Source of the DNA: Halichondria panicea
Taxonomy: Eukaryota > Porifera > Demospongiae > Suberitida > Halichondriidae
Length of the DNA: 64,000 nucleotides
Assembly (NCBI RefSeq): GCF_963675165.1
Contig: NC_087377.1
Span: 3,812,978-3,876,977 of the forward strand
Reading direction: 5' to 3'
Of this stretch, positions 7,516 to 39,100 are shown one piece after another; the first letter of the stretch is position 1, and the number at the start of each line of letters is the position of its first letter. The notes beneath the pieces were generated by a model that was not told the origin of the DNA, did no database searches, and saw only the letters and a list, made by a program, of their open reading frames with translations. Both the position numbers and the translations under genes were made by a program.

Positions 7516-10500
7516 CTACTGTCCATTACAAGTGTTCACATGTTTCCTATACTTCTGAATCTCCCCCACTCTAAAGTTACGCCTACATAGAGGACAGATT
7601 AGGTTCGGGTCAAACGGAGCATCGGGTGCCATCGATTCCAACTCATCCCCTTCATGGATAAGAAACTTGGCAGCGTCTTTGATGTCTTGGTCTATGCCTT
7701 GAAGCAAAGTGTGTTCATTCGCTACTTGTTTGGGCCGTTGTGTCTTTGGTTTAGAGTTTTTTCGTGGTCGGGGTATTGGTTGAAATTTTAAAGCTGGTTG
7801 ACCTGTAAGGGTTGACTGACCCCTTCCAGTGAGTGGAGGGATTTCTTGATGAGAATTCTTTAGCTCTTGACCACTTTCAGGTTGACCACTTTCAGGTTGG
7901 CTCTCCCTCTGCAGTAAAGTGAAAATAAGTGTAGTGGAGGCCATACAAATATACTCAAATGACACTAAGGTGACAGCCAATTAATACAGACAGCATGTTA
8001 CTGAGACTATACACTGCATGGACAATGAATGAATTAACAATCAATACATGCATGACAGGGTGTCATACAGGATTTTGAAGTAGATGGGGAAATAAGAATT
8101 TAAGTAACCAAAACATTTTGCTAAAAAAAAGGTCAACTATTATTTCAATACACTGTTATATAAAATTGCCAGCTATGGACAAATTTTAGGGGGGAGGAAT
8201 TGGAGCTAGAGGGGGATATCCCCCTTTCCCCCTGTATATGACACTCTGTATGAGAACACTCACCATATAAACAGGAGAGACTGGTTGTCGGTGTTGCGGG
8301 GACTCCAGTCGACTGTTGATGGACTGATGTGGTAGCACTGGGATCTATATATACAGTAATCACAGACATAACGCTCGCATTAGCTTGCTCAATCTGTATA
8401 ACCAACAACATAGATGTTAACACGCCGAGGCAATCAACAATGTGCAATATGTAACTACATCGATTCTACTGTGATGCACTAGCATGTAATAGGGGGTGTG
8501 GTCAAACATTTTGACGCGTGCCCAAACATTTAATCCTAGATGAAACCCTGCATACATACGTACATTGAACTGTTGAACGTTATGAAGTAAGACTGACATC
8601 CGAAATGCAAAATGTCCCATACATTGATTAATGGGGCAAACAACAATAATACCTTGTCAATGCTGAAAAGAGGAATTGCTATCGAGTGCTGTGCGAGTGT
8701 TCCCTTCAGCTTCTCAATGGCTTGGTAGCAGGTCTGTACAGGAATAAGAAAATTACGATCACAGCATGCAGTGGTAGACTAATGTACATGCATGTAGTAC
8801 ATGTGCATGTACACGTATGTATCTAAGGTAAAACTCCTCGACACAAATTTACACAAGAAACGTACGTTGCATTTGTCCATTAGCTCACTGCATTTTGATT
8901 CGGCTGCTAGTAGTTTTTGTTCCACCTCTATTCGTCTGTCAACCTCGATCATCACAGCCTTGGGAATTTCCCCACCGTATCTAAGTTCCTGTAGTTCTCT
9001 TTCAAACGCTTCAACTCGTCTTTGAGATTGGATTAAATCCGTACTAGCAGCAAGCTTATCGCTCTCTGCAGTTGCTTTGGCTTGCTCAATCTATGTAACC
9101 AAAAACACATGTGTATTGCTCTAAAATCATGGCTCAAAAATATGAAATCAGTTTGTGTACAACGTTCATTTAACACTGTTACAGTAGAACCTCGATCCAA
9201 ACACCTTGGTGTGCAGGCCGGATAACTGCATGAATATGCCGGATAATCGAATAGATAAACCACGCCTTCATCCACCAACTTTATTGATAAACAGCAGTGC
9301 CACATGGTTGTCTGTGCATGCGCAGAAGATAAGCATGCCTGTCTCCATAGTAATAGCTACAACGCGCGCATGTGCATTTAAGGGATACGCCATTTTCTGA
9401 ATTATTCATTAAAAAGAAAATTGCCAAGCCGGATAATCGAGGTTCTACTATAATACTGTTGTTAAACGTTGATACATGTACAGCGTACTTATAATACCCT
9501 TGATTGCATATGAAGCACACATACATGTAAATAATGCACACCTACATGCAGTGTTAGAAATAATTTTTATTGACTGTATATGGTCAAATGTCATTCCTGG
9601 TCATACTGACCGGACACATGCAGGAATGCATGGTCATTCTAATTAAACGTCCAGTCAATTATGACCGCGATAGCAGTGAGAAATTTCTAACACTGACATG
9701 TACAGTGTATAGATGATTACTGTTACATGCAGTAGTAAATTTACCTGATACTGATTGTCCTCTTCCATGGTTTTAATGAGCTCAAGGCGTCGCTGCAGCT
9801 CCTGCTGTGTCTTCAATAGTTTAGTATTGGCCTCCTCCACTTTGGCTTTGAAACTGTCCGTCTGTTTCTTGTACTGCTTCACTTGAGCCGTCTTTGCCAT
9901 GACCTCATCGTGAAGCTTTGCTGAGTCAGCGAGGGACACTTCCAGCCTCTGGCGAGCATCTTGTAGTTTGGCTATCACAGCTTGTTTTTCTCGTTTCTCT
10001 GTCTCAGCTTCTGCCATATATTTTCTGAGTTGATCAGACAGAGCATCGTTTGTACCAAAAGTTTGTTCTCGAGCAGCACGTTCTTCTTCAAAGTCTTGTT
10101 GGTACTGAAATGCCTGCATTTACAGTTGAGCCTCGGTTATCCGAACACCTTTGTCCCCGGGCCCATTTGGATAAGTGAAATATTCGGATAATCAAAACAT
10201 GCCAGCTGGCTTCTTTTTGCCAGCCACGTGGGCAATTTCCTACTGCGCATGCTCAGATTGCACTATGCTCTAGCATTCGGATAATCGAGGATTCGGATAA
10301 CCGGGATTCGGATAACCGAGGCTCAACTGTAGTAGAAATGTTAGTAGAAATTGCCTAGACTTAGCAGTAGTACAACGATTATAAGGCTGGTTTCTATAAA
10401 CTCTGACGGACTTGTAATTATAATTTAATGACAACCATACATTTATATTTACATTGAGTGCCCTCCCCCCTCACAGTATGAAGGTACTATATGTACATGT

Positions 10501-13500
10501 ACCTCCCCGGATGCATTTGTCTTTTAAAGAAAACTATAAGACATCTAAAATTGTGGGAAACACAAAATGTATACACCCACTTGGATCACATTGTGTGAAG
10601 ATCAATTCTTCAGTATCCAATTAGATTCACTAAAACTACATGACTGCATTCGACTGCATTTGAAACCAGGGGTCTCAATTGTATTCCCCAAGGGCCAGGG
10701 CACAGCCTAGTCGGGCGCCGCCGCCCTCTACCGTTGCCCGGAAGGAGGTCGGGAATCAAGCCTATATATCCACAGTTTTGTTTTGTTGGTGGAATTCCAC
10801 CAGATTGCAGTATATCAAGTGGATTGATCACACCCACTCAACTTTACCACGTGTGATTTTTCACACATGGGATTGACTGAGAGGCGTGACCAACACCCAC
10901 CGTTATTCGCTAGCACCCACACATAATGAATGATTTCATGATACTATTGCGTAACAGGCCAGAACAAAACTGTGGATAGGCTTGATTCCCGACCTCGGCA
11001 CCTGACTAGGCACAGCCGAGGGAATAGAGGTTAGTACAAACAATACACACAGCAGATGTCCACCACATACAGATACATGATGCACTATGAACACCTACAT
11101 ATATATAGAAGCTGTTAATCTAACCCATTTACAACTGAGTACCAGTATTAGTAAACACTCTTTGATCCCTGCTGTGCATTTTCACTGTGCATGTTTTGTG
11201 TGCTTGTGCGTGCTTGCACTTGATAAACATAAAACTGCCCTCACACCCTTGATATTCAGGGTACAAACATGTACATAATTATAATTTATGTGTTGCTTTA
11301 CAAAATAGGCATGTGCACAGTTCCTTTAAAAAATTAATTACTGTACAAGTCATGTGCTATAGCTATAGAGCACTGAAGTGCTACCCTCGGCTGTTGATAT
11401 GAATAAATCTATAAAAATCAGCGAAGTGTTCAGAATATTAATAAAGATGCAATTCTACTTTTAGTAGCCAAAACATCATATCCGGCTGTACATTGAAAAC
11501 CTAGTTCTGGGCAGCCATCACTGGCCAGTATACGGGATATAGCGAGTGGCTGTACTTCAGGGTGAGTTTTGTGCAGTAAACATCTAGCTAGCAATCGTGT
11601 AGCAAACTAAATGGCCGGTATATCGAGGTGGTCGTACTTCAGAGGGCTGGAATAGCGAGAGTCTATTGTATACCCGTGGCCGCCCACGCACGCCTCGGGT
11701 AATTATGCACAAGCAAATAAATAAAGGACTTACTTTCTCCAACTGTCCTTTGTAGCTGTGTTTAGAAGCACGCAACTCGACACTTTGTAGAGCCAAAACA
11801 TCACGTTCTTCATTGGAATCTCTCAATCTTCTCTTCAGTGATAGATTCGCTTTACCAAGCTCAGTGATTCTGTTGTTGAGTCTCTCCACTCTTTTCTCAT
11901 GTTCTTTAAGTTCAATCTGTGGAGCAATTGACATAATTATACATTTCTAATTAGCAAGAATGTACATTTACGGGGGAACATACAGAGTGCATGTACATGC
12001 AGTATAATGATTATTATGTTACAACATAATTATAACATGGTCTGTAGATCGAGTACAATGCATGCATGCATGTACATGAGAGGTCAATACACAATGTAAC
12101 AACAAGACTTCAATTATTAATGGACTCATCAATAACGAACTCATCATACTTTAAACAGATTCACTTCAGCCGTGAGTAGCTGTATCTCTTGTGGATCTTC
12201 TTCTGCTCCCATTTGAACAGTTGACTTATCTTTAAGAGATGATACAATACTTTGGGACCTTGCAAGGTCTCTCTATAGGGATCCAGTGATAAAACAACGA
12301 TGATCAAATGCTAACTGCCATTGAATTAGCCAATATTTTTACAGACACATGCATGAGTATTATACATGTATACTATAATAAGTCAGGAGCTACAGCATGG
12401 CATAAACAATATACATGCATGCATGTATACCTTCACAGAATTATGGTTTGTTTGCTCAGCCTCAAACTCCAGCTTTAGAAGATTCAAGTCATCTTCAACC
12501 CCTGTCTTCTCTTTCTGAAAATCAGCAATGGTATATAAAACACACATTAATTAGTGTATACATAATTATGTTATAGTTATAACACGGGCACGAGGGATGT
12601 ATGGAATATATTGCACTGAAGCACGAGGGTGTAAGCCCCGAGGGCTGAGTGCAATATATTCCATACATCCCGAGTGCACGTGTTATAACTAATTTATATC
12701 CTGAGGGCATAGCAACATAACACTGGCTTAGTAACACAATATGAACAGCACAAAAAAATGACAAAGACAACTCTAGACACAGCTCCATCTCTTCTCTCTT
12801 CTAGACGCCAGTATATGCAGCGTATAAGATTGGCATGACCGACGAATGGCTTGATACAAAATTGTTGGAGTTCCAACGCTGAAACCACTGCAAAACAGCC
12901 CCACCCCACTACTGCTGCAAAGAAACAGCCGCACCCTACTTACTACTGCTGTGAAGAAACAGCCCCACCCCACTACTCAGTGTAACTGCTGCTTGAACAG
13001 CCCTCCACTATCCTCGGCATCACAATCAAGCCAAAGAAGCTCGCCTCTACACTGCTGCAAAACAGCTCAAGCCCCCAGCAAAAAGAGCCGCTTCTAGTGC
13101 TATGGTGAAGCAGAATTGACATGCATCATGAATTAAGTCGAGGACTAGGTCTAGGAACACAGAATCTTCCACAAAATGAGCCTTGGACAATTTTAAAACC
13201 TGCATGGTTGCAAAGAAGAAACTCCAGCAGTGTTGAACATGCATTCCTGCATGGCTGGACTTACTTTGATACTTGTTATTTCTCATGATACAATTTAATT
13301 GTCTGTCTAATGCCAGAGGGGCGTTTTGTGGTTAGTGCATTATTAGTGCATTGACTTTCAGCAGTGCATTATGCTGCATAATTATTGCACTTGGCAACAA
13401 TAACGTAGCAAGGGGATATAAATATATATATAGTTACAGTGCAATGTACCCTGAGGTCTCTAAGCTCTTCATTGCACATGACTATCGCCTGATGGAGCTC

Positions 13501-14752
13501 TCTAATTTTTCTTGCAACTTCTGACATGTCCCTGACTACTCGAAGTTCCTCCTGAGTCAGAAAATAGAATATAATAGTGGGTATTATGTGGAAATTTTCT
13601 TAAATATTAGCGTATATAGTGGGTAACATAAAACCTCAAGCATAGGAATGAGGTGCAAGTTCAGCAGCAAGATTGTGACAGTATAAGTATCGTTTATCTC
13701 TTCAATTGTCTCCAGCCTAGATTTTCTTTGAAGATAGCTTCGAGTAAAACCGGGGCAACACGGATGGTATTTGAGGTCAATTCCGTTGCCAATCCTTTAT
13801 CTATTACGGTGGGCAGCCTTCTCCAAAAAATCATGTGGCTATATACGCCTCGAGGCATGCATAAATATAAAACGCGCTTACATTTTGCAGAGCGGTCTCT
13901 AAAACAAATCGTTATTACCGGAAATTTATACACAAACAGATTTGTTTTTGTGGTCTAGCTCATACGAAACTACACGTATTATTACAGTCCTGTATGTCGT
14001 GAATACAGCAAAAATTAAGGACCTTAAAAAATAATTATCATGTGTACCTGAGCTGCCGCAAGCTCCTTCTTGAGTTGTACCACAACAGTGTTCTGTATTT
14101 TACTGTGTTCTTGTAACTGCTGTCGCTGAGACGCCACTTGTTGGAACGTTTGTAACTGAATACTAAGGGACTGAATTTCTTTATCCTTTGTTCTGAGAGC
14201 CGCTTTCATTTCTGCAATGGATGTGGACTCCTCATCTTCATCAGCATCATCGACACTAGAAGTAGGGGGAAGGCTAACTCTGGAGCAGTTGCTACATCGT
14301 GGTGCTTTCAACTGGCAATCTTTCTCGTGGACTTTATCTGTTAGCTCACTCATTTTTCTGTCAAATCGATGTTTCATCTGATCCTTTTCTGTTCGATTTT
14401 CTTGTTTCAAATCGGCAATTTCTGTAACCTTTTCAAGGTATTTGTCTCTAATATGTTGCAGTATTTTGGCACCATCACCTTCATCACCAGCTTGAATACC
14501 GTCGGCAGAGGGTGGAGCTTGCTCATTAGTAATTTTAATGACTTCTTGGAGGTCCTTAATTGATGCAGATATTTTGTTTAGCCTCTGAGTGAGGTCCTCC
14601 ACCTGGGCTTGAAGGTTTATGGCCTCTCTTTGAAGATATTCCGCTTCTTGGCGATGAGTTAGAGCATCTTTTTCAGCTTTTCTAGTCAGCTCCTCCAGCT
14701 CAACACGAAGTTTCTCAGCATCTGTCCTGTTGTCCTTTTGATCAACTAGCTC
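7516..14752 (-). CDS. NEMO/optineurin-like coiled-coil protein with UBAN motif and C2HC zinc finger, 10 exons (5' end open)
   Basis: Exons in reading order: 14752-14048, 13551-13450, 12514-12431, 12272-12150, 11916-11734, 10113-9745, 9090-8866, 8733-8653, 8344-8264 and 7908-7516. Every intron is phase 0 with GT-AG ends; together they encode 781 residues. Residues 1-620 are nearly continuous coiled coil. Residues 400-418 read AFQYQQDFEEERAAREQTF, matching the D-F-x2-E-R-x2-R-E core of UBAN domains (NEMO, optineurin, ABIN), which bind linear ubiquitin. The C-terminus carries C756-x2-C759-x14-H774-x3-C778, like the ubiquitin-binding finger that ends NEMO and optineurin. A CxxC pair (CSNC) sits in the first exon. 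This suggests a ubiquitin-reading scaffold in NF-kB/TBK1-type signalling or selective autophagy. The first exon begins at an acceptor and has no start codon, so an upstream exon is missing; the nearest in-phase candidate is the kinase exon at 16882-17790. Confidence 0.78.
9182..9450. mobile_element. pogo/Tigger-like MITE
   Basis: Inverted ends CAGTAGAACCTCGAT and ATCGAGGTTCTACTA flank 269 bp, next to TA dinucleotides (9180-9181 and 9451-9452). This end sequence and TA target are typical of pogo-type Tc1/mariner MITEs. It lies in an intron of the UBAN/zinc-finger gene and has no coding capacity. Confidence 0.7.
9549..9695. mobile_element. short hAT-like MITE, CAGTGTTAGAAAT ends
   Basis: Inverted termini CAGTGTTAGAAA and TTTCTAACACTG bound a 147-bp unit. 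ACATG flanks both sides (full duplication length unclear). It is intronic in the UBAN/zinc-finger gene, 50 bp beyond the donor of the UBAN exon. Confidence 0.55.
10123..10329. mobile_element. pogo-like MITE abutting the UBAN exon
   Basis: Termini CAGTTGAGCCTCGGTTATCC and its complement enclose 207 bp, with TA on both sides (10121-10122 and 10330-10331). Internally it repeats TTCGGATAA units. Its left end lies 9 bp from the minus-strand exon start at 10113, so it forms the branch-point region of that exon's acceptor. Confidence 0.75.
12563..13440. repeat. ~0.88-kb dispersed repeat with internal hairpin, copy 1
   Basis: This block is repeated at about 46628-47510 with the same internal order. 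It starts with a palindromic segment (TGGAATATATTGCACT paired with AGTGCAATATATTCCA) that includes TTATAACACGGGCAC / GTGCACGTGTTATAA. A GC-richer part with repeated CAGCCCCACCCCACT follows, then a tail ending near GGGATATAAATA. No protein is encoded. It fills most of the intron between two short exons of the UBAN/zinc-finger gene. Confidence 0.7.
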
Positions 14753-15572
14753 CTGTAAGAATGGTAATATACATGGTTTACATACACGTACAGTAATATC
14801 TAGAATGTTCTTTCACAGAAAAACCATTTGTAAATGCGATCTAACTTTTGTGCACTCTGGCAAGAATCATGATGCCATAAAAGTACTGGTATATAGGTGC
14901 GTGCAATGAGAAGTTATCAAAACTTGCAAAACCGCATAGCTTTGATGCTCGCTAAAAATTCTAGTACTCAATACACAGGGTGTCATACGGGGGGAGAAAG
15001 GAGGGATACCCCCCCCCCCTTTCAAGTACTATAGTTGTATGACTGAGTGTCCATAGCTGAGTATTTAAATAACAGTTTACCTTTTTTTAGCAACATTTTC
15101 TGGTTACTTCTCTCATTTCCCCCCTCTACTTCAAAATCCTGTACGACACCCTGATATAGTACACATGTACACCAATAAGCATACTCCTTTAACAACGAGT
15201 GGTGCATGCAAGCTGCCAGCTAGTGCTAAAGCTTCTCGCCATGTTTTGCAAAGAGACTTTACATGGTTGACAATGAACCCCCACAGTAAGGGTTTCATTT
15301 AGTGGGGGGAAGGGGGCAGGAGTGAACTTTCCCCCTCCCAAAATATTAATAATGACATCATTACATTAGTATAAATACTAATGTAATGATGCACATGTGC
15401 AATATGTAGACTCGCAAGCCGTCACTGTTGTACGGCAAACAGTAGACTGCATGGTCAACTCCAACGTTTGCCACAATAATTATTTGTGGCCATTTAAATT
15501 ACTAGACCGCATGCGGTTACCACAATAATCATTGATAGTGACGTAGCACTAGAAAACTCATCTAAGTATCAC

Positions 15573-16749
15573 CATAGCTAGATCGAAGAAGGAAAGGGAT
15601 TAGAAACATATCACATGATGCTCTATCAATTGTACGTGTGATGTCATAACATGATTTTAGAGGCTAGTTGCGCTTGTTGAGCTACTGGAAACTCGCCCAC
15701 TGTCTGAAGCATTGAGTTTTATGGGAAATTTGGGTATATTCAACACCCCTGGGGTTATGCTGAGCCATACCAAACTACCTATACAGACTCTTAGCTACTG
15801 AGTTATACAAGGAGTTTTCTCTTGGATTTCAGCTATATTGTAAGTTTTGTTCCTACATCATCACCCCTGGTTTGTGTAATAGGTTGTATTTAGTATGAGG
15901 AGAAAGCCTATATGGTGCATGTATAGAATGGGAATAGCTACTTTGTAGATTTTTCCTAGGTACTTTGGCAAACATAAGTAAAAACGGAACAGCATGTTTC
16001 CGTTCCTCTTACCTTATCCAGCGATGAGCAATAGGCACTATAGTTTTACAGTATCATGCGTTATTACCAGTAGAATGGGAATAGAACATTTACATTTTTT
16101 TTATGAAGGCTCAATCACTTGTTTTAGTATAATACAATTGTGGTTTATACATAATTATTGTGGCATTTGTTATACCCATATAAGTACTGTATTACAGTGA
16201 AGAGAGTATACTCTTGATACAGTCCATTGCTAGTAAATACTATCAGCAGTTCAAACACAGGACATGGGGAACCTAAAGAGGGAGTATGAAATGCTATAGA
16301 CAAAGATAGAAGTAGTGTCCTTTCAAGTCAAGACCAATGAGAAACAAATGTTCTGTAGAGGAGTAGATCTATAGATAGGAATTTACCAGCATGCACGTGC
16401 TAAGTAAGCATTGTTCAATGTCACAATGACGGATTGTTGTATAATTATAGTGATCATGATTGGTGTCTTCTTTTATGGTGTGTTTATTGTTTATCATAGC
16501 TCTAGAAGACTCCCAGAAGCTTTCAGGGAGTCTGGACCATCTTTCTGGCAGTCAACTTTTTCTAATACAAACTTGATAGAACTATCCGTTGCCGCTTCTT
16601 GTATAGATTGTGTTATTACCTTTGTTTGTTCTTAGAAGTTTTCATGTGAACCAGGTTAAATTATGGTGTTATTAGGTTATGGCATTTCCTATCACATGCC
16701 GCAGTTATACAATAGGATTTCTACTGCGTTTCCAATCCTTTTATCTATG
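15573..16749. mobile_element. CATAG-ended inverted-repeat element, copy a (1177 bp)
   Basis: Starts CATAGCTAGATCGAAGAAGG and ends CCAATCCTTTTATCTATG, with the 7-bp duplication GTATCAC at 15566-15572 and 16750-16756. No transposase is recognisable inside, so it looks non-autonomous. It sits between the kinase exon at 16882 and the first coiled-coil exon at 14752. Confidence 0.7.
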
Positions 16750-16881
16750 GTATCACGTGTAGTAGACTGACGTCACAAAACCACAGCCACTTAGAATCTT
16801 ATCTGATATGCTGACTATGCAACACAAGATCCTACATGAATAGCTCATAATGTGTCACGCGTACCCAACATACGAACTTAC

Positions 16882-17790
16882 CTCTTCGAGGATGGATGCA
16901 ACATCCCCTGGGGACTTTGGGTGCTTTGTACTGAGCTGATTGAGAGTCTTGTTCAGGTCAGCTGTTGAGGGTCGAAGCTTCGGCTCATCTTGCAGACAGT
17001 TGATAGCAAGTTCGTAGAGAGGGTGACTTTTCTTCATTTGTTCTTCAAGGACATACTTTCTCTCAGCAATCTCCATTTTACCAGGCTCCACTTTGCGAAA
17101 ATTGGTGACTCGAAAAATTTTTGGCCAACTTTGAATCGAGGTGTGGAGTACAAGATGTCCAAATGAGAAAATGTCCATACTTGTATTATACTGAGGATCC
17201 TTGATTTTGGTTTCTGGAGCCATGTAGGATAAATTTCCAGGGGCCATTGTTTGCTTGATAATATGCGGGTCAGTGAGAAACTTCGATACTCCCAAATCAG
17301 CAATTTTGGCTCGACAATCTTCAGTCAGGAGAATATTCGGTGCTGTCAGATCACGATGTATGAGAGGTGGAGTTTGATTGTGGAGGTACAGTAGACCGTA
17401 AGAAATGTCAAGCAAAGTAGATACCTTGATTGATATCGGGATGTTTTTACGTTTTTCAACGAATGTAGCAAGATCACTCTTCAATCGCTCCATAACAAGC
17501 ATCAGATCGCTCTTGGATTTTCCATAACACACCCCCACAAAATGTACGATATTGGGGTGGGACAACTTGCTCAAAAGGACACACTCATTGTAAAATTTCC
17601 CCTGTATACATTTTCGATCATCAGCAGATACTTCTTTGTTGGTCAGGATTCGGTGTAGCTTCTTAGCCATGCAAGGCAAGCCAGCAACACTCACTTTGAA
17701 GACAAATCCATAAGCTCCAGAGTCAAGATCATCCACATCTTTATCTCCTTCTTCAAGACCTTGAACATCTTGCAGCAAGTGCGCTTTTAG
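16882..17790 (-). CDS. TKL-type kinase cassette K1 (single exon, no own start codon)
   Basis: A 909-nt open exon encodes a complete kinase domain. It shows a glycine loop GAYGFVFKV, the ATP lysine in CMAKK, helix-C Glu in FYNECVLL, a HRDLTAPNILL catalytic loop, DLG in place of DFG, and MAPE. It resembles tyrosine-kinase-like serine/threonine kinases. All catalytic residues are present, so it should be active. It ends SILEE at a GTAAGT donor (minus strand, 16881), phase 0. There is no ATG. Compared with K3, about 25 bp containing the acceptor and the start codon are missing, leaving TTATCTCAAG directly before codon CTA (17790-17788). Either that AG is used as an acceptor from an upstream exon, or the copy is dead. 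Downstream, the phase-0 donor fits the coiled-coil exon at 14752. Confidence 0.7.
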
Positions 17791-17966
17791 CTTGAGATAA
17801 TTACAAGCCCCTCCCCTTTTTTGAGGAAGTGGATTTTGCTTAGCCTCGATCCCAAGTCCTTTGGAGCGGCCTGAGATCGAAGCTTCCTATTAGCTAGCAC
17901 AAGGTGCCACAACAAAGTGAGCCACCCCACAAATCAGCTTGAGGGCTTTTCAGATGGTATACAGAT

Positions 17967-18065
17967 CTACAATAATTTTATTCTAGGTCTTGAATTATTA
18001 TCTTGCAGCAAGTACGCTTTCAGCTCGTCCAACTTTTCAGCCGTGTTTGCAAAAAAGCTAAGATG
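17967..18065 (-). pseudogene. truncated kinase N-terminal fragment (arm 1)
   Basis: The minus strand encodes AEKLDELKAYLLQD, the first residues of the K3 kinase exon, then diverges after ten or so codons. The expected start codon is ACG instead of ATG. A second, inverted copy lies at about 23516-23590. It is a relic, not a gene. Confidence 0.65.
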
Positions 18066-18310
18066 ACAACAACCTCCCCTCTCAACAACCTTTATTTTAC
18101 TATAATAAAACCAAGACCTCCCAAAATGATTACAGTACACAAAATCAAAGGCACACATGTATAATATGTAAACACGAACAGTGTTCGATCTGCAAAAAGG
18201 TAGAGGTTATATCTACTACATGTATACAGATCTATAATTACATGATCATTATAATACTTTGTCATGGATTGGAAGTGGAATGGGTGGAGCCGTGGGTTTC
18301 TGGAGAATAA
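17985..18310. repeat. inverted duplication, arm 1
   Basis: This ~325-bp stretch is found again in reverse orientation at 21838-21996 plus 23322-23600. The second arm is split by the element at 21997-23314 and its duplicated target site. Here the uninterrupted target reads TTTTTGCAGATCGAACACTG on the minus strand. The arms enclose kinase cassettes K2 and K3. Confidence 0.75.
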
Positions 18311-18864
18311 GAATTAAAAAATTGTATAATTATGTCGTGCAAATGTATAATGTATATATAATTATATATATACCGTATATGCTTGATCAGGCCGCGGCTA
18401 CTAAATGTTTCATTTTGCTGGAAGAGGAGGCTACAATTCAAGAGGGGCCACTGTTCAAGAGCGGCGTTTATTAGCTCCAGATAATTTAGTTTGTCATCAA
18501 AAGTTGTTTTCACCTGCATAAACTTGAACTCTGCCATGAGAAAGTCTTTGTGAAGCACTAACAAGCTGCTACTCATAGCTACGTACATGTAGCTAGCTGC
18601 TAGTAATAATTTTTTTGGCTGCCACGTGTAGAAATGCTAGAGTCAAAGTTCACTGAGGCTACTATTTGAGAGCGGCTACTAAATGTTTCATTTTGCTAGC
18701 AAGGGAGGCTACTATTTGAGTGCGGCCTTTATACAAGAGCGGCCTCTGATCGAGCATATACGGTATACATAGCTATATACGAACTCTTCACAATAAACAC
18801 AAAATTCTGTCGAAGTCTGATATGCTATAGTAGATCAATTTTAAAATTGTAACTACAAACTCAC

Positions 18865-19773
18865 TGAGTTCCTTTGCATTTCAATAGTATCCACGAATGG
18901 CTTCGGGAACTGCTTTGCAAACTGAATCAGAGTTGAGTTGAGCTCTTGAGATAATGGTCGTCTTTGAGGCTCGTCTTGAAGACAACGGCAGATTAGTTGT
19001 CTCATTAGATCTTCTGGAGATAGTTTGCCAATCCATTTCATTCGCTTTTGTATCTGAACTTCCTTCCGTTGAATACCAGTGGCTGTCACTAGATTCTCAT
19101 AGTGCATAAATTGTGGATACTCTTGTAGAAGAACATAAAGAATTAGTACACCAAAAGAGAAGACGTCCAAAGCATAGCCATATTTCGGATTCTCAGTCAG
19201 TGCCTCAGGGGGCATATATCCGAGTGCGCCGGGACCCCTTATCTGTTTAGAGGTAGGGTGGGCATCAATGATTTGTGAAACAGCAAGGTCAGCAATTTTA
19301 GCATGGAAGCTAGTAGTGAGGAGAGTGGTGTGAGCTGCCAGATCACAGTGAACAATACCCCGAGAATGAAGGTGTAGCATGCCTTGGGAGATGTCCAGAA
19401 GAATCGATACTTTTAACCACATTTCAATATTTTTATATTGCTCCAGGCAGATCTCGAGATTCATGTACAGACGCTCTATAACTAGTGTGAGCTCTCTCCC
19501 GTAATCTCTCTGTGGCCCATAGTGCACACCCATAAACTGGACAATGTTGGGGTGACGCATTCGACTCAGTAACACACACTCAGAATAGAACTTCTGGTAG
19601 AAAGCTCGTCTGTCTTCTTTATTCTCTATCAAGTTGACATGAGATTGCTTAGCAATGCAATTCATCCCATTCAAATGGATGTGGTAGAGAGATCCGTACG
19701 ACCCAGCGCCATGTTGCTCACCGAGCTCAGGGAGATGTGGTAGGATGTAGGGAGTCAGCTCATCAGAGCTTGT
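18865..19773 (-). CDS. TKL-type kinase cassette K2, probable pseudokinase
   Basis: A 909-nt exon runs from a CATACAG acceptor (first codon ACA, 19773) to a GTGAGT donor (18864), phase 0 at both ends. It aligns over its whole length with K1 and K3, but is much more diverged. The glycine loop is GAGSYGSLYHI and the lysine is kept in CIAKQ. The catalytic loop is HCDLAAHTTLL: the HRD arginine and the Mg-binding asparagine are both replaced. The DFG equivalent is DLA and the APE motif is PPE. By analogy with other pseudokinases it may bind nucleotide poorly or serve as an allosteric partner. It has no start codon, so it depends on an upstream exon; K3, about 570 bp upstream, has a matching phase-0 donor. 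Confidence 0.68.
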
Positions 19774-20341
19774 CTGTATGTGAAATAAGGAAACTGCACA
19801 GTCAGTATAATATATTTGAAAAGACTATAGGCATGTATAATAATTATATGTATACGTATGTATATATGATGTCCAACCAGATTGGTGTATGTGTCAGGAT
19901 AAAGGTCAAATTGACATAATCTCGGTCCCGTACGTGTTCATGAATACATGCAGTTAATTAGCTAAAACTATGTTGATTAGTGTAACTGTATGTATTTTAC
20001 AAAATAATTGCAATGGGAAAGTTGCTATAATTGGTGGGGGGAAACACCAAAAAGCGCAGAAACAAGAAATCCGGCGAGAGCATAACTCCAATTTCTAGAA
20101 TCTTTTCCTCCTTGTACAAGGATCATCATGAAATTTTGCAACCATGCACTTTCCAAACAACTATACAATTAACTTGGACCATGGGCATTTTTCTCAGATT
20201 TGCGATTGGTTTCACGAGGCACATGACCTCTCAAACCCAGGCAAATGCTGTTACTATCAGTTCAACACTCTAATATCTACTCAACCTATACCATAAAAGG
20301 TGCATGTGAGTGTCACGCGTATACCCAACATATGAACTTAC

Positions 20342-21615
20342 CTCTTCGAGGATGGATGCAACATCCCCTGGGGACTTTGGGTGCTTCGTACTGAGCTGAT
20401 TGAGAGTCTTGTTCAGGTAAGCTGTTGAGGGTCGAAGCTTCGGCTCATCTTGCAGACAGTTGATCGCAAGTTGGTAGAGAGGGTGACTCTTAGTCATTTG
20501 TTCTTCAAGGACATCTTTTCTCTCAGCAATCTCCATTTTACCAGGCTCCACTTTACGAAAATTGGTGACTCGAAACGTTTCTGGCCAACTTTGAATCGAG
20601 GTGTGGAGTACAAGATGACCAAATGAGAAAATGTCCATACTTGTATTATACTGAGGATTCTTGATTTTGGTTTCCGGAGCCATGTAGGATAAATTTCCAG
20701 GGGCCATTGTTTGCTTGATAATATGAGGGTCAGTGAGAAACTTCGATACTCCCAAATCAGCAATTTTGGCTCGACAATCTTCAGTCAGGAGAATATTCGG
20801 TGCTGTCAGATCACGATGTATAAGAGGTGGAGTTTGATTGTGGAGGTACAGTAGACCGTAAGAAATGTCGAGCAAAATGGATACCTTGATTGATATCGGG
20901 ATGTTTTTACGTTTCTCAACGAACGTAGCAAGATCACTTTTCAATCGCTCCATAACAAGCATCAGATCACTCTTGGATTTTCCATAACACACACCCACAA
21001 AATGTACGATATTGGTTTCCGGAGCCATGTAGGATAAATTTCCAGGGGCCATTGTTTGCTTGATAATATGAGGGTCAGTGAGAAACTTCGATACTCCCAA
21101 ATCAGCAATTTTGGCTCGACAATCTTCAGTCAGGAGAATATTCGGTGCTGTCAGATCACGATGTATAAGAGGTGGAGTTTGATTGTGGAGGTACAGTAGA
21201 CCGTAAGAAATGTCGAGCAAAATGGATACCTTGATTGATATCGGGATGTTTTTACGTTTCTCAACGAACTAGCAAGATCACTTTTCAATCGCTCCATAAC
21301 AAGCATCAGATCACTCTTGGATTTTCCATAACACACACCCACAAAATGTACGATATTGGGGTGGGACAACTTGCTCAAAAGGACACACTCATCGTAAAAT
21401 TTCCCCTGTATACATTTTCGATCATCAGCAGATACTTCTTTGTTGGTCAGGATTCGGTGTAGCTTCTTAGCCATGCAAGGCAAGCCAGCAACGCTTACTT
21501 TGAAGACAAATCCATATGCTCCAGAGTCAAGATCATCCACATCTTTATCTCCTTCTTCAAGACCTTGAACATCTTGCAGCAAGTGCGCTTTTAGCTCGTC
21601 CAACTTTTCAGCCAT
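20342..21615 (-). CDS. TKL-type kinase cassette K3 with internal 345-bp duplication and frameshift
   Basis: It begins MAEKLDELKAHLLQD at an ATG (21615) just after a TTTGCAG acceptor-like site. It ends SILEE at a GTAAGT donor (20341), phase 0. The kinase is nearly identical to K1 (GAYGFVFKV, CMAKK, HRDLTAPNILL, DLG, MAPE). Sequence 20671-21015 is repeated directly at 21016-21359, so the region from NIVHFVGV to SYMAPET occurs twice. The unit is 345 bp, a multiple of three, but the N-terminal copy has lost one base (GAACGTAG to GAACTAG, near 21270), which shifts the frame and truncates the protein. Without the duplication the exon encodes 310 residues. Either this allele is broken or the assembly contains an error. 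Confidence 0.7.
20671..21359. repeat. 345-bp direct tandem duplication inside K3
   Basis: Copies 20671-21015 and 21016-21359 are identical in every base I compared except for one deleted G. The junction fuses MAPET to NIVHFVGV. Such identity implies a very recent event or an assembly artefact. Confidence 0.85.
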
Positions 21616-21812: not shown

Positions 21813-21996
21813 CACAAATCAGCTTGAGGGCTTTTCAGCAAGTTGTCCCACATACGTTATTCTCCAGAAACCCACGGCTCCACCCATTCCACTTCCAATC
21901 CACGACAAGGTATAATAATATTATAATGATCATGCAATTATAGATCTGCATGTATACTTGTAGTAGATATAACCTTTACCTTTTTGCAGATTGAAC

Positions 21997-27191: not shown

Positions 27192-30100
27192 ATGTACAAG
27201 CTTATTGCATGTGTAGTGATTCTGTCTGCACTGATACAAGAGTCAGTACAAGATGGCAACTGTCCAGTCTGTGGAGCACCCACTGCTGAGGCTTCAATTA
27301 CAAACACCTTTGCCGGCAGCTTCAGTAACACCAGACGGAGAAGACAAGCCGCTATAAATCCAGAGCCTGGTATGTGCATGAGGTCTATTTCACTACATAT
27401 ATATATACACGTGTTTTCGGTGTCAGAGAATTGTGCTTGTGATGTTATCATACGTACTTATAGTGTCATGTTCATATTATAGAGAATCAGAAGATTCATC
27501 ATTTTATTCACTTAGGTATACATGCATGTGAGTATACGTACATTGACTACTAGTACTATAGTGAAACCAGGAGCCCATAAATAACAGAAGGAGCGGCTGA
27601 CTACGGGATCACGTTTCGTAAGTGGTTATGACCGCATTTCCATATACTGTATAGCGGGTGTATTTCGAGGGCATAAGGTTTTCGCGGATTAAGCATGTAC
27701 CGCGAACATTTATAACCGCGAATTTAATATTGCATGCATGCATGCATGCTGCAAAAAGGCTGCTAATCCACGAAAATTAAATCTGCGAAAACCTTTCTAA
27801 AGGCATTTCTTTGAAAATGTATACCCTCAAAATATACCCGCTATACGGTATGCAGAGTCACTAAGTGGTTGAATCCCTACACGTGTTATACGCAATACAT
27901 GACTGCGGTTTGCAAGCACTTAGTCGCTTCCATAAAAGGAAGTGTGGTTTCACCAGCAATACAAAATATGATTCTCGAGCCCCTCCTTCTCTTATTTATG
28001 GGCTCCTGGTGAACCAGTGGAAATATCTTAGCAAGTTTGTGCTTTGTTCTATAGATCAGAGGAAGTCCGACAGGTGCGGTGCAGCTCAAGTAATTAGCCT
28101 TTGATTACTCTCAGCAAAATCATACGACGTGGGTCGGGCGTGGGCGGATAATTATTGCTCAATCAATGGCTAATTGCTTGAGCTGCACCGCGCCTGTCGT
28201 ACCTCCTCTGGTTCTATAGATATAGTGATAACTGTCACACGTTATTTCAGGGGGCAATTAATTGATGTGCGACGTGCTACAGTCATTGTTTTTTAGTAGC
28301 CTTAATTAAATCAATTTAAACTTGAGATCTTTTCTACAGATTCCAATGCTCCTACAACACGAGGTAATGAGTTTGCCCTTGCATTTATGAGACATGCTGT
28401 TGAACAAGCTGAAATAACGCTGTATATTACGACTGAACAAAATGTGTCTAATTTCACTATTGAAACGAAGTTTTCAGGTCTAATAGGATTCAACGAGACA
28501 TCATCTGACAGTGGATTGTACTCTCATACTGGCACAGCTCAGAGGGGAGAGTTTACTTTCATTCAATTGCAAGCTATTGATGGACTGCCAGGCCTATCAG
28601 TACAGAGTGACGGTAATAATACTGCAAGTGATAGACAAAAGGGACTGATCTTAACTGCAGATAATCCAAAGCATGAGCTCACAGTATATGCTCTATACAG
28701 CAGTGATGGTATTAGCAGTGATTTTGGTTCCTCCACTGATACCTTCATGGCTATTAACTGTGTTAATTTTCCAACGGCGAGAAATTATCAGTATTTCATA
28801 TTCACAGTATATATTAATGGTGGTGGTGGTAGTAGCCAGTTTCTCATGACACCCTGTCAAGATAATACAACTATTCGTGTTAGACCATCACAACCATACA
28901 CTCATCCCTCCTGGGTAAATTCAAGCGTGCAGCGTACAACTCCGGGTACCTTGTCTGAGGAAGAAGCAATCTATGGACGACGTTTCAATCGCTTTGATAC
29001 TCTCTTGTTTAGCAATGATGGTGATTTAACCGGGACCATAATTACATCTGACAAGCCATTGTCTGTTTTCAGTGGCTACAGCGACTTTTCGTTTTTTCTC
29101 GTGGAGCAAATTCCACCACACCCAACATACGGCAATTTATTCTTTCTCTCATCAATTTTTAACAGAGTGATATTTCAAATAGGCTCTGTCAGTGATGAAG
29201 CCTCCATACAAGTCAACTGTCCATGTAGGCCAAACTCTGTGAGTAATAGTAGATTGCGCATATCCCTCACAGGTTCTGGGAGATTTTTTACTGCTGTTAT
29301 GAATCAAGGCCAATACGTTGAATGTTCGTTATTTAGCAATCCAACAACAGCTTGCAGTATCCAGTCGATACGTCCAGTTACGGTTATGAGTTACCAATTG
29401 ATTAACTCTTTCTCGATGGTGTATATACCACCTGTTGATTCTTATCTGACTCAGTATAGTCTCACAAGTCTGGGTGATTCTTCTGTATCCCTGAGCTACT
29501 CTCTCCAGGATCTAAACTTTCCGGGATTACTAGTCAATGGAAGTATATTCCCACCGTCCGATGGTTTCACTACCATCGACTGTAGGTCGGACTGTTCTAA
29601 GTCAATAGTGTGTGGGCGGGGAGCTACTGGTCGCTTAGGCCGCCAAGGAACCTTTGATATACAATTTTCTGGTGATGTACCATTCTGGGGGTTTGCAGGT
29701 TCTGCTGGAGAATTTACTTACTCTCTACCATTTGAGATGAGACCAATAGGATGTAAGTTCAAACATAGATAGAGTAGAAGAGGGATTGGAAACGGAAGTA
29801 CCCTCGAAGTACCATCCGTGTATCTCCGCGGTTTTAATCGAGGCTTACTTTTTAACACGAGGGCTAAACATGAATAATTCATGAGAATTGTTTTTGCTCT
29901 CTGTAAGAAGTCCACGAGCAGTTCTGCTGCTAAACATCAATTTTCTCTAATACTTGAGGCCATTTGGGACACAGGACACTATTTAGTTACAAAGCCTTAG
30001 CTATATCAAAGGTACTATAGGAACACAAGCATGAAAAAGCGCTGTGTACCTCTAGCTACTTCACGACAATCGAGATTATATTTTCTTTGTTTCCAATTGA

Positions 30101-33100: not shown

Positions 33101-36100
33101 TACCATTGTTACATACCCCTCAGCTCCGCCTCAGAATAACCACGGTAGCGGAGGATATATGGGTGCATATCCTCCTCTTAGGTGTGTGGTATATCTTATA
33201 CTTATTTACTTTCAGGAGAGGACTACACTTCAACTGGTTTGCTCCGAGGTACAGGCAATAGTGCTAACTTAGAATGGAGACCTGGTAATTCACTTCCCAA
33301 TGATCGATTTATCGTACCTATAATTGATGATGACATTCCGGAACCAGTTGAAGTATTAGAGATTGTAGTTGAATGTGAAGATAAGGGAAACTGCTATTTA
33401 CCACAACAAACTTACACCATCACCATTATAGACGATCAAGGTACGTACAGCTGCATGTTATGCTTATATATATAGTAGATAAAGCGTGTCTATACAATCA
33501 TTGGCATGTATATGTGTCACAACGTCGTTTTGCGGCAAACCATGCATTACCAGAATGGGCTAAGTTAGCAGAAAATTTGACACTTTGCGATCTAGCAATC
33601 AGGCAAGGATCATGATCGATGTCCTACATGTACTGCATGGTTTTATTTTTGCGAGGCCATGCATGCGCATTAGCACTATGTCTTAATTGCTAGTTTGCAA
33701 GTATTTACGTTTTATGCTCGTAAAACAGCGTTGTAGTAAGTAGTGAAATTTGATCAGTCATGCATGTCCATTTCCTAGGCAACTGTAGGGAAGTAAGGTA
33801 TAATTATTAACACCCGGGCTAATAAAACTGAGACATATCTCGTTTATTGTAGCTATTTGCTCTGACCTGCCTGAAATTGGATTTGGTACCTTGGAAAATA
33901 GAGTCTTGGAAAATAGTATCTTGGAATATGATATGGAGGAAGATATGATTAGTGGCACTAGACCAAATGGAACTGTTGCAACGTACACTTGTGATGATGG
34001 ATTCAGGCTGGATGGAAATGCCACTCGGATATGTGACACTGGAAATTGGGCAGGCACGGTACCTGTGTGCATAGAAAGTAAGTCATGCATGAGTAATAAT
34101 TTGTACCATGATGTGCTCTGACACTAAGGAATATCCATTGAAACTCTCAGGATACTCCAGGGTACAAATCTCATGTACCCTAGGGTACATTGGCTGTGGT
34201 AAGCCTAAAGCCCACCCTCCATCCTTAAAGCCAGTCTTTTATAGAACACTACTGTGACACACTAGGATCACATTGTGAAGATCAATTCTTCAGTATCCAA
34301 TCAGATTCACTAAAACTACCGGACCACATTGGAACTGGGTTGTAAATGTGGTTTGTCAAGTGCAAGCACACCACACAAAGTGTGCACAGTGCATGCACGG
34401 CAGGGATCAAAGAGTGTTTACTACTACTCAGTTGTAAATGGGTTGGATAACAGCTTGTAATTGCTTCTAATCAATACGTGTTCATAGTACAAGCTACCTG
34501 TACCATGAATATCTGCGGGTGTATTGTTATAGTACAAATCCAATACACCCGCAGATATCCATGGTACAACTATTACATGTGTGTACGTGTATATATATGG
34601 TACTGAATATCAACATATGTATAGATAATAGTTATAGACTGAGTTCAAGGGATTATGAGACCCCGAGGGCCCGAGTCTGTAGCGCCCCCGAGCGCAGTGA
34701 GGGCGCTATATACTAAGGGCCTGAGGGCCTCATAATCCCATAGTGACCGTTGGACGAGGCCTATAACTGATTTAGAATAGTGCTAAGCTATGGCTAAGCA
34801 AGCTAAGCTATATTAACACAAAGAAGACTCTGCAACCAAGAGTTTCTACAAGCCTCAAGCAACGTTAAAGCTTTGCTCTGGCTAAGTCTACATAAAAAAA
34901 CTTCAGTGAAGGCCATTTCCGTCTGTTGAGAATCATGCATAGCAAAAACTGCTAATAGAAAGTTGCTATTCTACTTAACAATTAGCTCTGCACTAGAGCA
35001 CTAGCTATTGGTAGCTGCAAGAGTGAGATAAAGGCTGCAAAGCTGCACTGTTAACACAAAAAAATTAATTTTTAATGATGCACTGCATCATCGTTACTAT
35101 GACTTCAACATAAATTTCCATAGGCAAGTACATATAATGAACCTCTGTAGAAGACCTCTACTGAAGTCTCTAAGTGAAATAAGGGACCTCTCAGTAACCA
35201 ATCAGATTGCACCATTTGTGACAAGTATTTTCTAATAGCTCTGCCTATATAGTCAAACTGATCTGTATTAACTCTTTACTTTCATGTCAGGTTTAGGGCA
35301 CTCTCTCATTATATATACAATATATATCTCGGTGTGCATGCATGGTACGTATATTGTGTGTGCCATTTCCTGACAGATTCCCTATAGATTTTCTTCAAAT
35401 GTTCAATTTTACACTGAGGCATCAGCACCCACAGTGCTTTCATTGAGTCTGTTTTTGAAGTTATACTACTGCATGCATGTTGTATATATAATTATGTCAT
35501 AATTATACTGTGTTAGCCTCGATCCCAGGCCGCACTATCATCAGGGAAGTGGGCCTGGTATCGACATGCTTGCGCATGCGCTAACCATCTGCCAGTATAT
35601 ATCTGACGGCGACGGATAAAAACGTTTATGGTAAAAAACGATGACGTCACAACGAACGGAAGTGGATTGAAGAAAATTGATAAAAAGTTTGATTGAAGGT
35701 TTCTAACCCATCAGATATAGCATTCTTATAGCTACCATTATCCTCGGGGCCGTAGACAGCGGGGGGGGGAGGGGGGGGGCAAGATCTGCCAAAACTATTG
35801 ATCTGCACATGCCCAATGAGAGTGGGCAGGGCTATCTGATGCACATGCTGACTGCTGAGAATAAGTTATGACCTTTTTTTATGTAAATTCTGAGCTCCAC
35901 TGCACCTCTGGGAAGCAGGCACCTTCCTAGTTTAAGCATAGATTGAAGAGTTAGAGGGATAGGAAACGGAGTGGTGCACGTGATGATTTTACATTGAATC
36001 TGCAGTGGAGCCTCGAAAATTATCTGCGCTACGCCCTATGAACGAGGCTATTAACCACATTTTTGCCGGGTAACTCCCAAAGCTGTGTTTCCTCGAGACA

Positions 36101-39100
36101 TCATCTCTTTCAGCAACTTATAACACGCCTAGTCCATGAGCCACGTGTAGTACTTGCTAATGACTGACCACACCCAGTAAAAAGAGACTTTCCAATAAAG
36201 TTATAATTATGTTCCCAAGTCTGTTTTAGAGCTATATATTGGAACATGTAACGTGTAAGCGTGCTGGTTATGACTACTACAATAGGTATAGACTTTGAAA
36301 TATAAGTGAGTTGCACGGACTAAGCACAGTTACTTGTAGTTTATTATGCACTGAGTGTAGAAATAGATATTGTTGTGATGGCCTCGATTAAACCGCAGCG
36401 TAGCGCGGATGTTACTCGAGATACCAACCGTTTCCTATCCCTCTAACTCTTCAATCTATGGTTTAAGCTACCTTGTTTTAGTTGCTCTAAGTTGGTGCCA
36501 CAGCAAGTTGGAAGATGCCATACTCAAAGGATATGAAATAACAGTTGAACTTTTTTTAGTAAACATTTTCAGCTGGTATTTTGCCACCCCTGGCTGCAAA
36601 TTACTTAAGCTATCTATACGACCCTGATCCTGCTATGTTAACAAAAGACTCACAGCCTGCAACAGTGTGGATAACATAGCCTCGAGACCAGCCGTTCGTT
36701 ATCTGAAAGAACGCCTGGTCAAGTTCCAATGTAGAACTCGTTTAGCTGAGTCAGCGAGTGGTTAAGCTTGAGTAGTTGTGAACGGGATTGCGGTAACCGC
36801 AAACACAACAATACTATAGCCAGCTGCACGTTACTGTAAGCCGTAGTGTCATAATGATATTCACGGGCAAGTATGGTTGTTGCGGGCAATTACCTATCCG
36901 AGAAATTCTTGGACCAATTTGACGAGTTCTACCAGGCGTTCTTTCAGATAACGAACAGCTGGTCTCGAGGCTATGGATGACTATCGTCTGAATGGAGTGA
37001 AAGCTGTATGGTAACAGCCTATATGCATGGACAAGCCACATCCATTTACTACTAACCTTGGTGGAAGTTACAATCAGAAAGAAAATAGCTGTGCAACAAA
37101 CGTACATGCTCTGCTAGCTATATAGCTCTGTGTATGACTTTGTCTTTGTGTTTATTATTTCTGATAAAATTGCAGTATATAGCTATAATGGGAAATTTTA
37201 CTGAAAATGTCCAATAATTTTGCGCATGCGCAAGCAGTCAGTATCAGGCCTTCTTTTCTCTGTTGAAGGCCTGCGAAGGAGGCGTGTGTGCACAAATTGC
37301 TATTCTATTGACATTGTGATTTCCGAACAACCCTGATTATAATGTAATGCATTATTGCAGTCTTTTGCTCTGACCTTCTTCAAATTGACAATGGTACACT
37401 AAGTTTCAATGGCTTTCCCTTGAATGGCACTAAACCGAATGGTACTGTTGCAACGTACACTTGTGATGATGGATTCAACCTTGATGGAGATGCCACTAGG
37501 ATATGCTTCGATGAATATTGGACGGGTACTGAACCTGTATGCACAACAAGTAAGCCCTGCATGCTGCATGGGTATATATAATTATACCGTATATATAGCG
37601 GGTATATTTCGAGGGTATACATTTTCGAAAATGCCTTTAGAAAGGTTTTCGCGGATTTAATTTTTGTGGATTAGCAGCCTTTTTGCAGCATGCATGCATG
37701 CGATATTAAATTCGCGGTACATTGCTTAATCCGCGAAAACCACGAACATTTATACCCTCGAAATATACCCGCTTACATACGGTATAATTATATATAGCTA
37801 TAATTATAATACGTGTGTATGCATGGGTCGGTGTAGTCTAGTCTAGTTTTTGAGTGTCTCTCTACATTACCGCCCGCAGGTAATAGTTGACTTCTTTTGG
37901 CAAGGAAATTAGGTATATAAGCCGAAGGTATGTACGTATGTATGATAATTATGACGCCCACTTTAATTAATTGATGTGAATTTTGAATATCAAATTTATG
38001 TTTTACATTTCATTACCGGGTACGGTGTAGTCTATATATAGTCTATAATTTTTGAGTGTCAAAATTAATGTCATATTCATTTCATTATTAGGGTATATTC
38101 AACCTTTTTTTATTAACTATAGCTTCAACCAATATACATGTAGTACTGGAGATAATTTGCTGTCCTTGTGTATTTATGTGCACAAGTTTTGTAAGGTTGA
38201 GGCAATACAAAAAAGCAACATTTTTCAGTATTCATGCAGGGCCCAGGAATCCTTAAAACAACTGTGTCCCCCCCCAAGTGACTAATTAACCTGTGTTGGT
38301 TTTTAAGATGTTGGTTTAGCATAGACAGTGGTCAAACTTTCAATACTGACATATTCAGGCCCAGAAATCCTATATACTCAGCTTTAGTGTCCCCGGCCTG
38401 TCAGTCCTAATTATACTATAATATACCATGCAATGTTGACATACTAGTTATTTATCTGATCATTTCCCTCTGTGTTTAGACCTAACAATGTCGACTATCC
38501 AGCCAACCAATCAGGGAGGAGGTGTGTCTGACCCAGTGATTATCAGCATCATCGTTGTCGTGGTTGTGGCTGCTCTTGCTATACTGGCAATAATTTGCTG
38601 TCTCTGTTTTTTAAGGTTGAGACGAAACAAACAAGAGATACTAAGAGTGTCTACTATAAGGTGAGGCCTTTATGATGGCGAGCTATATACATGCAGTACT
38701 AAGAGGTAAAAGATGTGCCCCAACAGTGTCAATTGTGTTGTGTATAATTATTGTTGATTGGACTCCTTTTTTATAGAATGAGGAAGCTGTCTGATCGAAG
38801 TACTCTTAAGGGTATGTATCAGTATGCATGTACTATCAATAATTGTATCTCAATCTGCAGATTATCAAATGCGAGAGATCGTGAAGTATGTTCCAGAATC
38901 GATGAGAATTCCCAGCTCCAATCTGAAACTTCAAGATGCAGTCGGTCAAGGTGACTGACTATTGTACATGCATACAAAATTAGTATCTCTGGTAGTTTAA
39001 TTTGCATGGACTATAATTCCAGGAGCCTTTGGGATTGTGTACAAAGGTCTACTAATGGACTGGAACAACGTTGCCATGAGGGGTGTGGCTTTGAAGACTC

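Follow-up and report, generated by a model that had tools for sequence, protein, structure and literature searches.

A tandem sponge gene family that probably joins TKL-type kinases to UBAN scaffolds, and a rearranged member of it

In animals that have been studied in depth, the protein that reads ubiquitin (NEMO, optineurin, ABIN) is distinct from the kinase (IKK, TBK1), and the dimeric coiled coil carrying the UBAN motif binds linear or K63 chains. Here we analyzed a stretch of 64,000 nucleotides from the sponge Halichondria panicea (the window; contig C1:3812978-3876977 of a 131-Mb, 39-contig genome), in which kinase exons lie next to the exons of a NEMO/optineurin-like scaffold, together with the paralogues of this locus. 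Our overall reading, to which we assign a probability of roughly 60%, is that of a tandem family fusing TKL kinases to UBAN scaffolds, with a rearranged member in the window.

An excerpt of PMC10694592 treats NEMO and optineurin as scaffolds, and the main text of a review from 2026 on NF-kB in early animals (PMC13042239) does not mention NEMO (term count 0). No kinase-UBAN family was found in the open-access literature, subscription papers and annotated sponge proteomes being outside the search.

The exon names K1-K3 (kinase), T (terminal) and C1-C10 (scaffold) refer to positions within the window, on the minus strand; contig C1 is distinct from exon C1. As the first-pass annotation of the window had stated, three kinase exons and ten coiled-coil, UBAN or zinc-finger exons lie there in one order: K1 (21615-20342), K2 (19773-18865), K3 (17790-16882) and C1-C10 (14752-7516). 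The elements of the locus are listed below.

20342..21615, minus strand: K1, kinase exon with an ATG, a good donor, a 344-bp tandem repeat and a frameshift
18865..19773, minus strand: K2, intact exon that reads as a pseudokinase and shares 78% identity with the C-terminal kinase of gene A
18249..18299, minus strand: T, terminal exon after K2, KPTAPPIPLPIHDKVL then stop; first half homologous to the terminal exons of genes A and B
16882..17790, minus strand: K3, kinase exon that copies K1 but lacks its ATG; it retains the catalytic motifs and has a phase-0 donor and a poor acceptor
14753..16881, minus strand: K3-C1 intron; first approximately 30 bp K1-like, from 16836 homologous in pieces to the S2-C1 intron of gene E
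14048..14752, minus strand: C1, coiled-coil exon; phase-0 acceptor, 5' end without a start codon
13450..13551, minus strand: C2, coiled coil
12431..12514, minus strand: C3, coiled coil
12150..12272, minus strand: C4, coiled coil
11734..11916, minus strand: C5, coiled coil
9745..10113, minus strand: C6, UBAN motif YQQDFEEERAARE, then coiled coil
8866..9090, minus strand: C7, coiled coil
8653..8733, minus strand: C8, coiled coil
8264..8344, minus strand: C9, with corrected start at 8344, phase 0
7516..7908, minus strand: C10, linker and C-terminal C2HC zinc finger CPLCRRNFRVGEIQKYRKHVNTC, then stop

Kinases and UBAN scaffolds in the paralogous genes

The proposal that kinase and ubiquitin reader form one polypeptide finds its support in the gene models of paralogues F, H and A, and stands in part only at the window locus itself. 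The paralogous loci, all on contig C1, are the following.

5184245-5178505, minus strand: gene F, kinase with an ATG, coiled coil, UBAN motif YRDDFQSERKDRE, coiled coil, long linker, finger
5190032-5187727, minus strand: gene H, kinase, coiled coil and finger, without a UBAN motif
5019986-5021826, plus strand: gene A, UBAN exon, coiled coil, K2-type kinase, terminal exon
approximately 5022416-5031187, plus strand: gene J, S1-like start exon (by eye), coiled coil, UBAN, kinase; partial model
5176042 to approximately 5169374, minus strand: gene G, kinase, UBAN-like C6 segment, ZU5 and Death exons; coiled coil
5156747 to 5168861, plus strand: gene E, scaffold of exons S1, S2 and C1-C10
4925567-4929877: plain scaffold without a kinase

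The model of gene F has seven exons encoding 889 amino acids with no internal stop, and four of its six junctions are in phase 0 and two in phase 2. Gene H was modeled with four exons (introns of 49, 146 and 89 bp; 673 amino acids) and the 3' end of gene A likewise with four (introns of 49, 102 and 82 bp; 535 amino acids), both free of internal stops; coiled-coil exons also match upstream of the modeled part of A. Introns with GT donors and AG acceptors separate the exons in all three models. In gene J, the kinase stop sits just ahead of the start exon of the next gene. Three further loci (B, C and D) have a UBAN segment and a downstream K2-type kinase paired by position only, and the kinase of D contains one stop. 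Gene E gave no kinase match in any stretch examined. Judged from these gene models, the kinase-UBAN fusion is very probably real in the family.

The assignment of a UBAN to the scaffold was supported by a profile built from five UBAN segments of the genome and searched against the Protein Data Bank (PDB) at E <= 10. It returned 28 matches, the first 19 of which were to NEMO, optineurin, ABIN-1 or ABIN-2 (E 0.001 to 0.5), the twentieth being a catenin; taken singly, the UBAN segment of gene F had ABIN-2 as its best match (1.3e-4). The motif DFxxERxxRE is present within a coiled coil both in the window and in F, and gene A has N in place of the second R. With the Pfam CC2-LZ model, 25 matches were obtained genome-wide at E <= 0.01, and 22 of these belong to the family (21 in two clusters of contig C1, and window exon C6). 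By position, 16 fell at 4.85-5.19 Mb, five at 3.13-3.22 Mb and two at 1.06-1.07 Mb of contig C1, one in the window and one on contig C10. The UBAN segment of F scored 0.0012 (19.6 bits, under the curated cut-off of 35.3), and in the plain scaffold Snapin_Pallidin (0.00063) outscored CC2-LZ (0.018); among 14 control genomes, two gave matches below the cut-off. Altogether, the UBAN identity is well supported by these sequence comparisons. The isolated CC2-LZ matches at contig C10:4219775 and contig C1:1058952 and 1073665 are candidate single-copy NEMO/optineurin/ABIN orthologues.

The C-terminal finger of exon C10, with the spacing C-x2-C-x14-H-x3-C, is likely UBZ-like. The best match of the zinc-finger profile was region 776-804 of Pol kappa (0.0033), followed by weak ones including RNF126, NDP52 and TAX1BP1. 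AlphaFold2 modeled the window finger, given as sequence alone, as a beta-beta-alpha finger with a predicted local distance difference test (pLDDT) score near 90; a Foldseek search with this model yielded nothing at 0.001, the top rows being the fingers of NDP52, TAX1BP1 and RAD18 (E 0.9 to 4). The NEMO N-terminal IKK-binding domain (Pfam NEMO) gave no match at 0.05 in exon C1 or in the joined C1-C10, the latter with C9 in the wrong frame.

The kinase had been likened to IKK, and this part of the first-pass annotation did not hold. At E <= 1e-20, the kinase of gene F matched only two PDB sequences, CTR1 and TNNI3K, which we take to be TKL kinases. Two Pfam kinase models recognize exons K2 and K3 (E 9e-37 to 2.7e-30). 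The motifs of an active kinase (glycine loop, Lys, HRD...N, DFG-type and APE-type) are present in K3, F, H and A, in the variants DLG or DFG and APE or PPE, and are not all kept in K2. K2 has HCD, a T replacing the catalytic-loop Asn, and DLA, presumably at catalytic-motif positions, and it therefore reads as a conserved pseudokinase.

Relatives of the window exons are concentrated on contig C1, the match counts for the large families being lower bounds. Close relatives of exon C1 lie at 5018251, 5033682, 5106885 and 5160365 (61-88% identity), those of C6 at several places in the same region; the finger had 24 genome matches at E <= 1, all on this contig (20 at 4.86-5.19 Mb, three at 3.13-3.16 Mb, and the window), and K2-type kinases had at least 15 at E <= 1e-60, again all there. 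Searches beyond the sponge yielded 132 pattern matches in GTDB genomes, none of them a relative by tblastn, and six in viral contigs, none a relative. Large arrays of kinase exons were observed at contig C3:0.87-2.46 Mb and on contigs C10, C12 and C17; some array kinases on C10 and C17 are approximately 50% identical to K3 and start with an ATG at a comparable position. An open reading frame (ORF) of 958 amino acids with a MULE transposase domain lies just upstream of gene E (contig C1:5151911-5154784, plus strand).

Reading frame, intron breakpoint and selection at the window locus

The scaffold frame is open across the 2346 nt of C1-C10 without a frameshift, and the joined K3-C1-C10 frame encodes 1084 amino acids with no internal stop. 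The window exons exceed chance in this open frame, in having fewer amino-acid-changing differences than neutral, and in the UBAN profile match. That every placed boundary is in phase 0 is correct from K3 to C10 provided that C9 starts at 8344, where the window acceptor fits the frame used by gene E for the homologous exon. A C9 starting at 8393 was dropped: it ends in phase 1, and the homologous exon of E uses the other frame. Exon C1 has, as claimed, an acceptor (a good one, in phase 0) and no start.

The K3-C1 intron preserves a breakpoint. Its E-like homology begins 46 bp past the K3 donor and amounts to 94% over 87 bp, 75% over 444 columns and 72% beside C1, relative to the S2-C1 intron of gene E, in which the S2 donor and the C1 acceptor are both in phase 0. 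Since the intron switches from K1-like to E-like past the K3 donor, the simplest account would be exon shuffling, in which a kinase exon, together with its own donor, entered the phase-0 intron of an E-like gene minus its first exons. The E-type start exon S1 has three genome matches at E <= 0.1 (5031611, 5104352 and 5156747), none in or near the window, and in the window S2 has no more than weak coiled-coil-like matches. Pieces of the same E intron (contig C1:5158505-5159533) also match window positions 35514-37283 and 53696-56860 (plus strand), in and around two putative tandem receptor genes, at 66-94%.

Both parts of the join carry signs of selection. K3 differs from the second repeat copy of K1 at 30 of 909 nt (96.7% identity), with 20 silent and 10 amino-acid changes, giving a ratio of amino-acid-changing to silent rates (dN/dS) of 0.13 (P = 0.0003 on the assumption that one copy is neutral and the other evolves at 0.1). 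The window branch of K2 has 44.5 silent and 20.5 amino-acid changes. For exon C1, the window branch has 8 silent and 10 amino-acid changes and the E branch 7 and 10 (neutral P 0.023). Between the scaffold and gene E, 590 codons contain 47 silent and 82 amino-acid changes (dN/dS 0.45, silent rate dS 0.14); this comparison leaves out most of C10, and also C6 because E has two C6-like exons. These counts suggest that the window parts were preserved over most of their history, and a very recent loss may have followed. The claim that remains for the window, K3 joined to C1-C10, is thus partly supported by the intron breakpoint and by selection on both parts. We lean slightly towards K3 being spliced to exon C1, while a full-length functional protein from this locus is rather doubtful.

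Several observations weigh against the fusion as we read it, and some of them lend themselves to other explanations. Genome-wide, no CC2-LZ match exceeds the curated cut-off (best 33.3 versus 35.3 bits), and an initial Pfam scan, run on the joined scaffold at 0.05 with C9 in the wrong frame, gave no match. Within the family, the UBAN-to-kinase link of B is by position only, and one putative exon of it ends in a stop. At the window locus, exon T, the terminal exon of K2, lies with its stop upstream of K3; kinase transcripts ending before 14752 had been named as the outcome that would speak against a fusion, and this exon comes close to such an ending. K3 lacks the ATG of K1 and the six codons after it, its putative acceptor scores -5.7, compared to 3.4 to 11.6 in 23 family acceptors, and no start codon was identified at the locus for the K3-C1-C10 frame. 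These features, together with the existence of the kinase-less scaffolds (gene E and 4925567-4929877), would fit separate window genes, with K1-K2-T ending at 18249, the scaffold starting from a short 5' exon within 16881-14753, K3 a bystander, and the fusion limited to F, H, A and similar paralogues. For such an exon, a mechanical scan of the K3-C1 intron found two ATG-to-donor candidates, no more than the mean of 1.7 in 200 shuffles; the earlier statement that no other start exon lies between 14752 and 16881 is to that extent upheld, with room left for a short 5' exon. The absence of S1 from the window also argues against separate genes, and the conservation of K3 relative to K1 and its donor score of 10.5, above those of 21 family donors (5.0 to 9.9), favor a coding exon joined downstream. 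We consider separate genes unlikely.

Other observations against the fusion would suit a decaying, 5'-truncated pseudogene, composed of an E-like scaffold minus S1-S2 and a kinase fragment, both K1 and K3 being damaged. The K1 frame from its ATG meets stops, making K1 not an intact exon, and the lost ATG of K3 and the missing S1 agree with decay, as do the extra 5' kinase-cassette fragments at approximately 18045 (minus strand) and 23550 (plus strand), which have ACG at the position of the K1 ATG. Additionally, the final third of K3/K1 has seven silent and seven amino-acid changes, dN/dS is not low in C4 (1.9, 7 changes), C7 (1.0, 15) and C2 (0.7, 13), all three changes in C9 are amino-acid changes, and neutrality of only the window copy of the scaffold has P = 0.036. 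However, a scaffold of 2346 nt free of stops and frameshifts at a dS of 0.14, the strong silent-site bias of K2 and of the K1/K3 pair, and the similarity of the window and E branches of exon C1 argue against decay, and a pseudogene appears somewhat less probable again than separate genes. The start of exon T also has an inverted copy at window position 21868 (plus strand).

The lesions of K1, and perhaps the K1/K3 pair, could instead be assembly errors, in which case the true locus would have a single undamaged kinase exon, with an ATG, ahead of K2 or C1. The tandem repeat copies of K1 (21357-21014 and 21013-20669) are identical over 344 bp save for one base absent from the first copy, which agrees with an error; a very recent mutation would account for K1 equally well, and the 30 differences between K1 and K3, as well as their flanks, indicate that they are not one locus assembled twice. 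An assembly error is accordingly rated as improbable. The literal polypeptide K1-K2-K3-C1-C10, an unbroken chain with three kinase domains as first proposed, has donors and acceptors in phase 0 throughout in its favor. It was rejected, as K2 is followed by a stop-containing terminal exon of its own, K1 is frameshifted, and K3 has no start and a poor acceptor; no three-kinase paralogue was seen among the loci read, and this chain is highly improbable.

Elsewhere in the window, two paralogous long ORFs at 28306-29772 and 52019-53716 (plus strand) have IgGFc_binding matches (1e-21 and 2.7e-21). Together with ORFs at 39535 and 59096 that look kinase-like by eye, they suggest a tandem pair of receptor-kinase genes. 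A C-terminal fragment of a hAT transposase lies at 49131-49685 (minus strand).

Proposed mechanism and comparison with known systems

From the observed exons, frames, homologies, breakpoint and selection we infer splicing, ubiquitin binding and activation in the following model. In the preferred reading, a tandemly expanded family would encode, as single polypeptides, a TKL-type kinase and a NEMO/optineurin/ABIN-like scaffold (coiled coil, UBAN and ubiquitin-binding-type finger) in at least two layouts, with the kinase first (F, H) or last (A). K3, a copy of a first-exon kinase cassette with a phase-0 donor, would have been inserted ahead of C1 of an E-like gene lacking its start exon, and the resulting window frame would read kinase, coiled coil, UBAN and zinc finger. 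The sister copy K1 would remain just upstream, before the pseudokinase K2 with its own terminal exon T, and K2 beside K1 may form a regulatory pair. By analogy with UBAN proteins, UBAN dimers and the zinc finger would bind polyubiquitin and bring the attached kinase domains together; the clustered kinases would trans-phosphorylate, such that ubiquitin chains could activate the kinase with no need for a separate IKK or TBK1 to be recruited.

More broadly, and at odds we place just short of even, phase-0 TKL kinase and scaffold exons may have been shuffled in tandem clusters into a combinatorial repertoire of self-contained, ubiquitin-switched kinases. UBAN, UBZ-like finger and also ZU5-Death modules would be combined with a kinase placed first or last, the 5' cassette of K1/K3 would act as a shuttle, and the products would be one-piece analogues of IKK-NEMO or TBK1-optineurin.

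If true, the repeated fusion would be a natural one-chain test of whether ubiquitin-driven clustering alone activates a kinase, and it would support recruitment as the core function of the NEMO, optineurin and ABIN scaffolds. The window would also represent phase-0 exon shuffling in progress, as it keeps the intron breakpoint between kinase cassette and scaffold.

The domains themselves are known, and their joining, in a repeated family, is apparently new. The family resembles NEMO and optineurin (IKBKG, OPTN) in its coiled-coil scaffold, UBAN and C-terminal C-C-H-C finger, and its profile matches their solved structures; it differs in that F, H and A carry a kinase domain in the same gene, in CC2-LZ scores under the Pfam cut-off, and in a finger spacing of x14 in the window, whereas NEMO and optineurin have x12. 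ABIN-1 and ABIN-2 (TNIP1/2) are comparable through the best single match of the F UBAN, and we know of no kinase domain in ABINs. The family finger profile and model point to the ubiquitin-binding fingers of TAX1BP1, NDP52 and Pol kappa, through weak matches (E 0.0033 at best by profile and 0.93 by fold). IKK and TBK1 are functionally analogous, being kinases under ubiquitin-reading coiled-coil scaffolds; unlike them, the family kinase does not belong to the IKK/TBK1 family by sequence, and a single gene holds both kinase and reader. RIPK-type and other TKL adaptor kinases carry C-terminal interaction modules, and gene G, with its kinase, coiled coil, ZU5 and Death exons, is similar to these, whereas the module attached to the kinase in this family is predicted to read ubiquitin through a UBAN and a UBZ-like finger.

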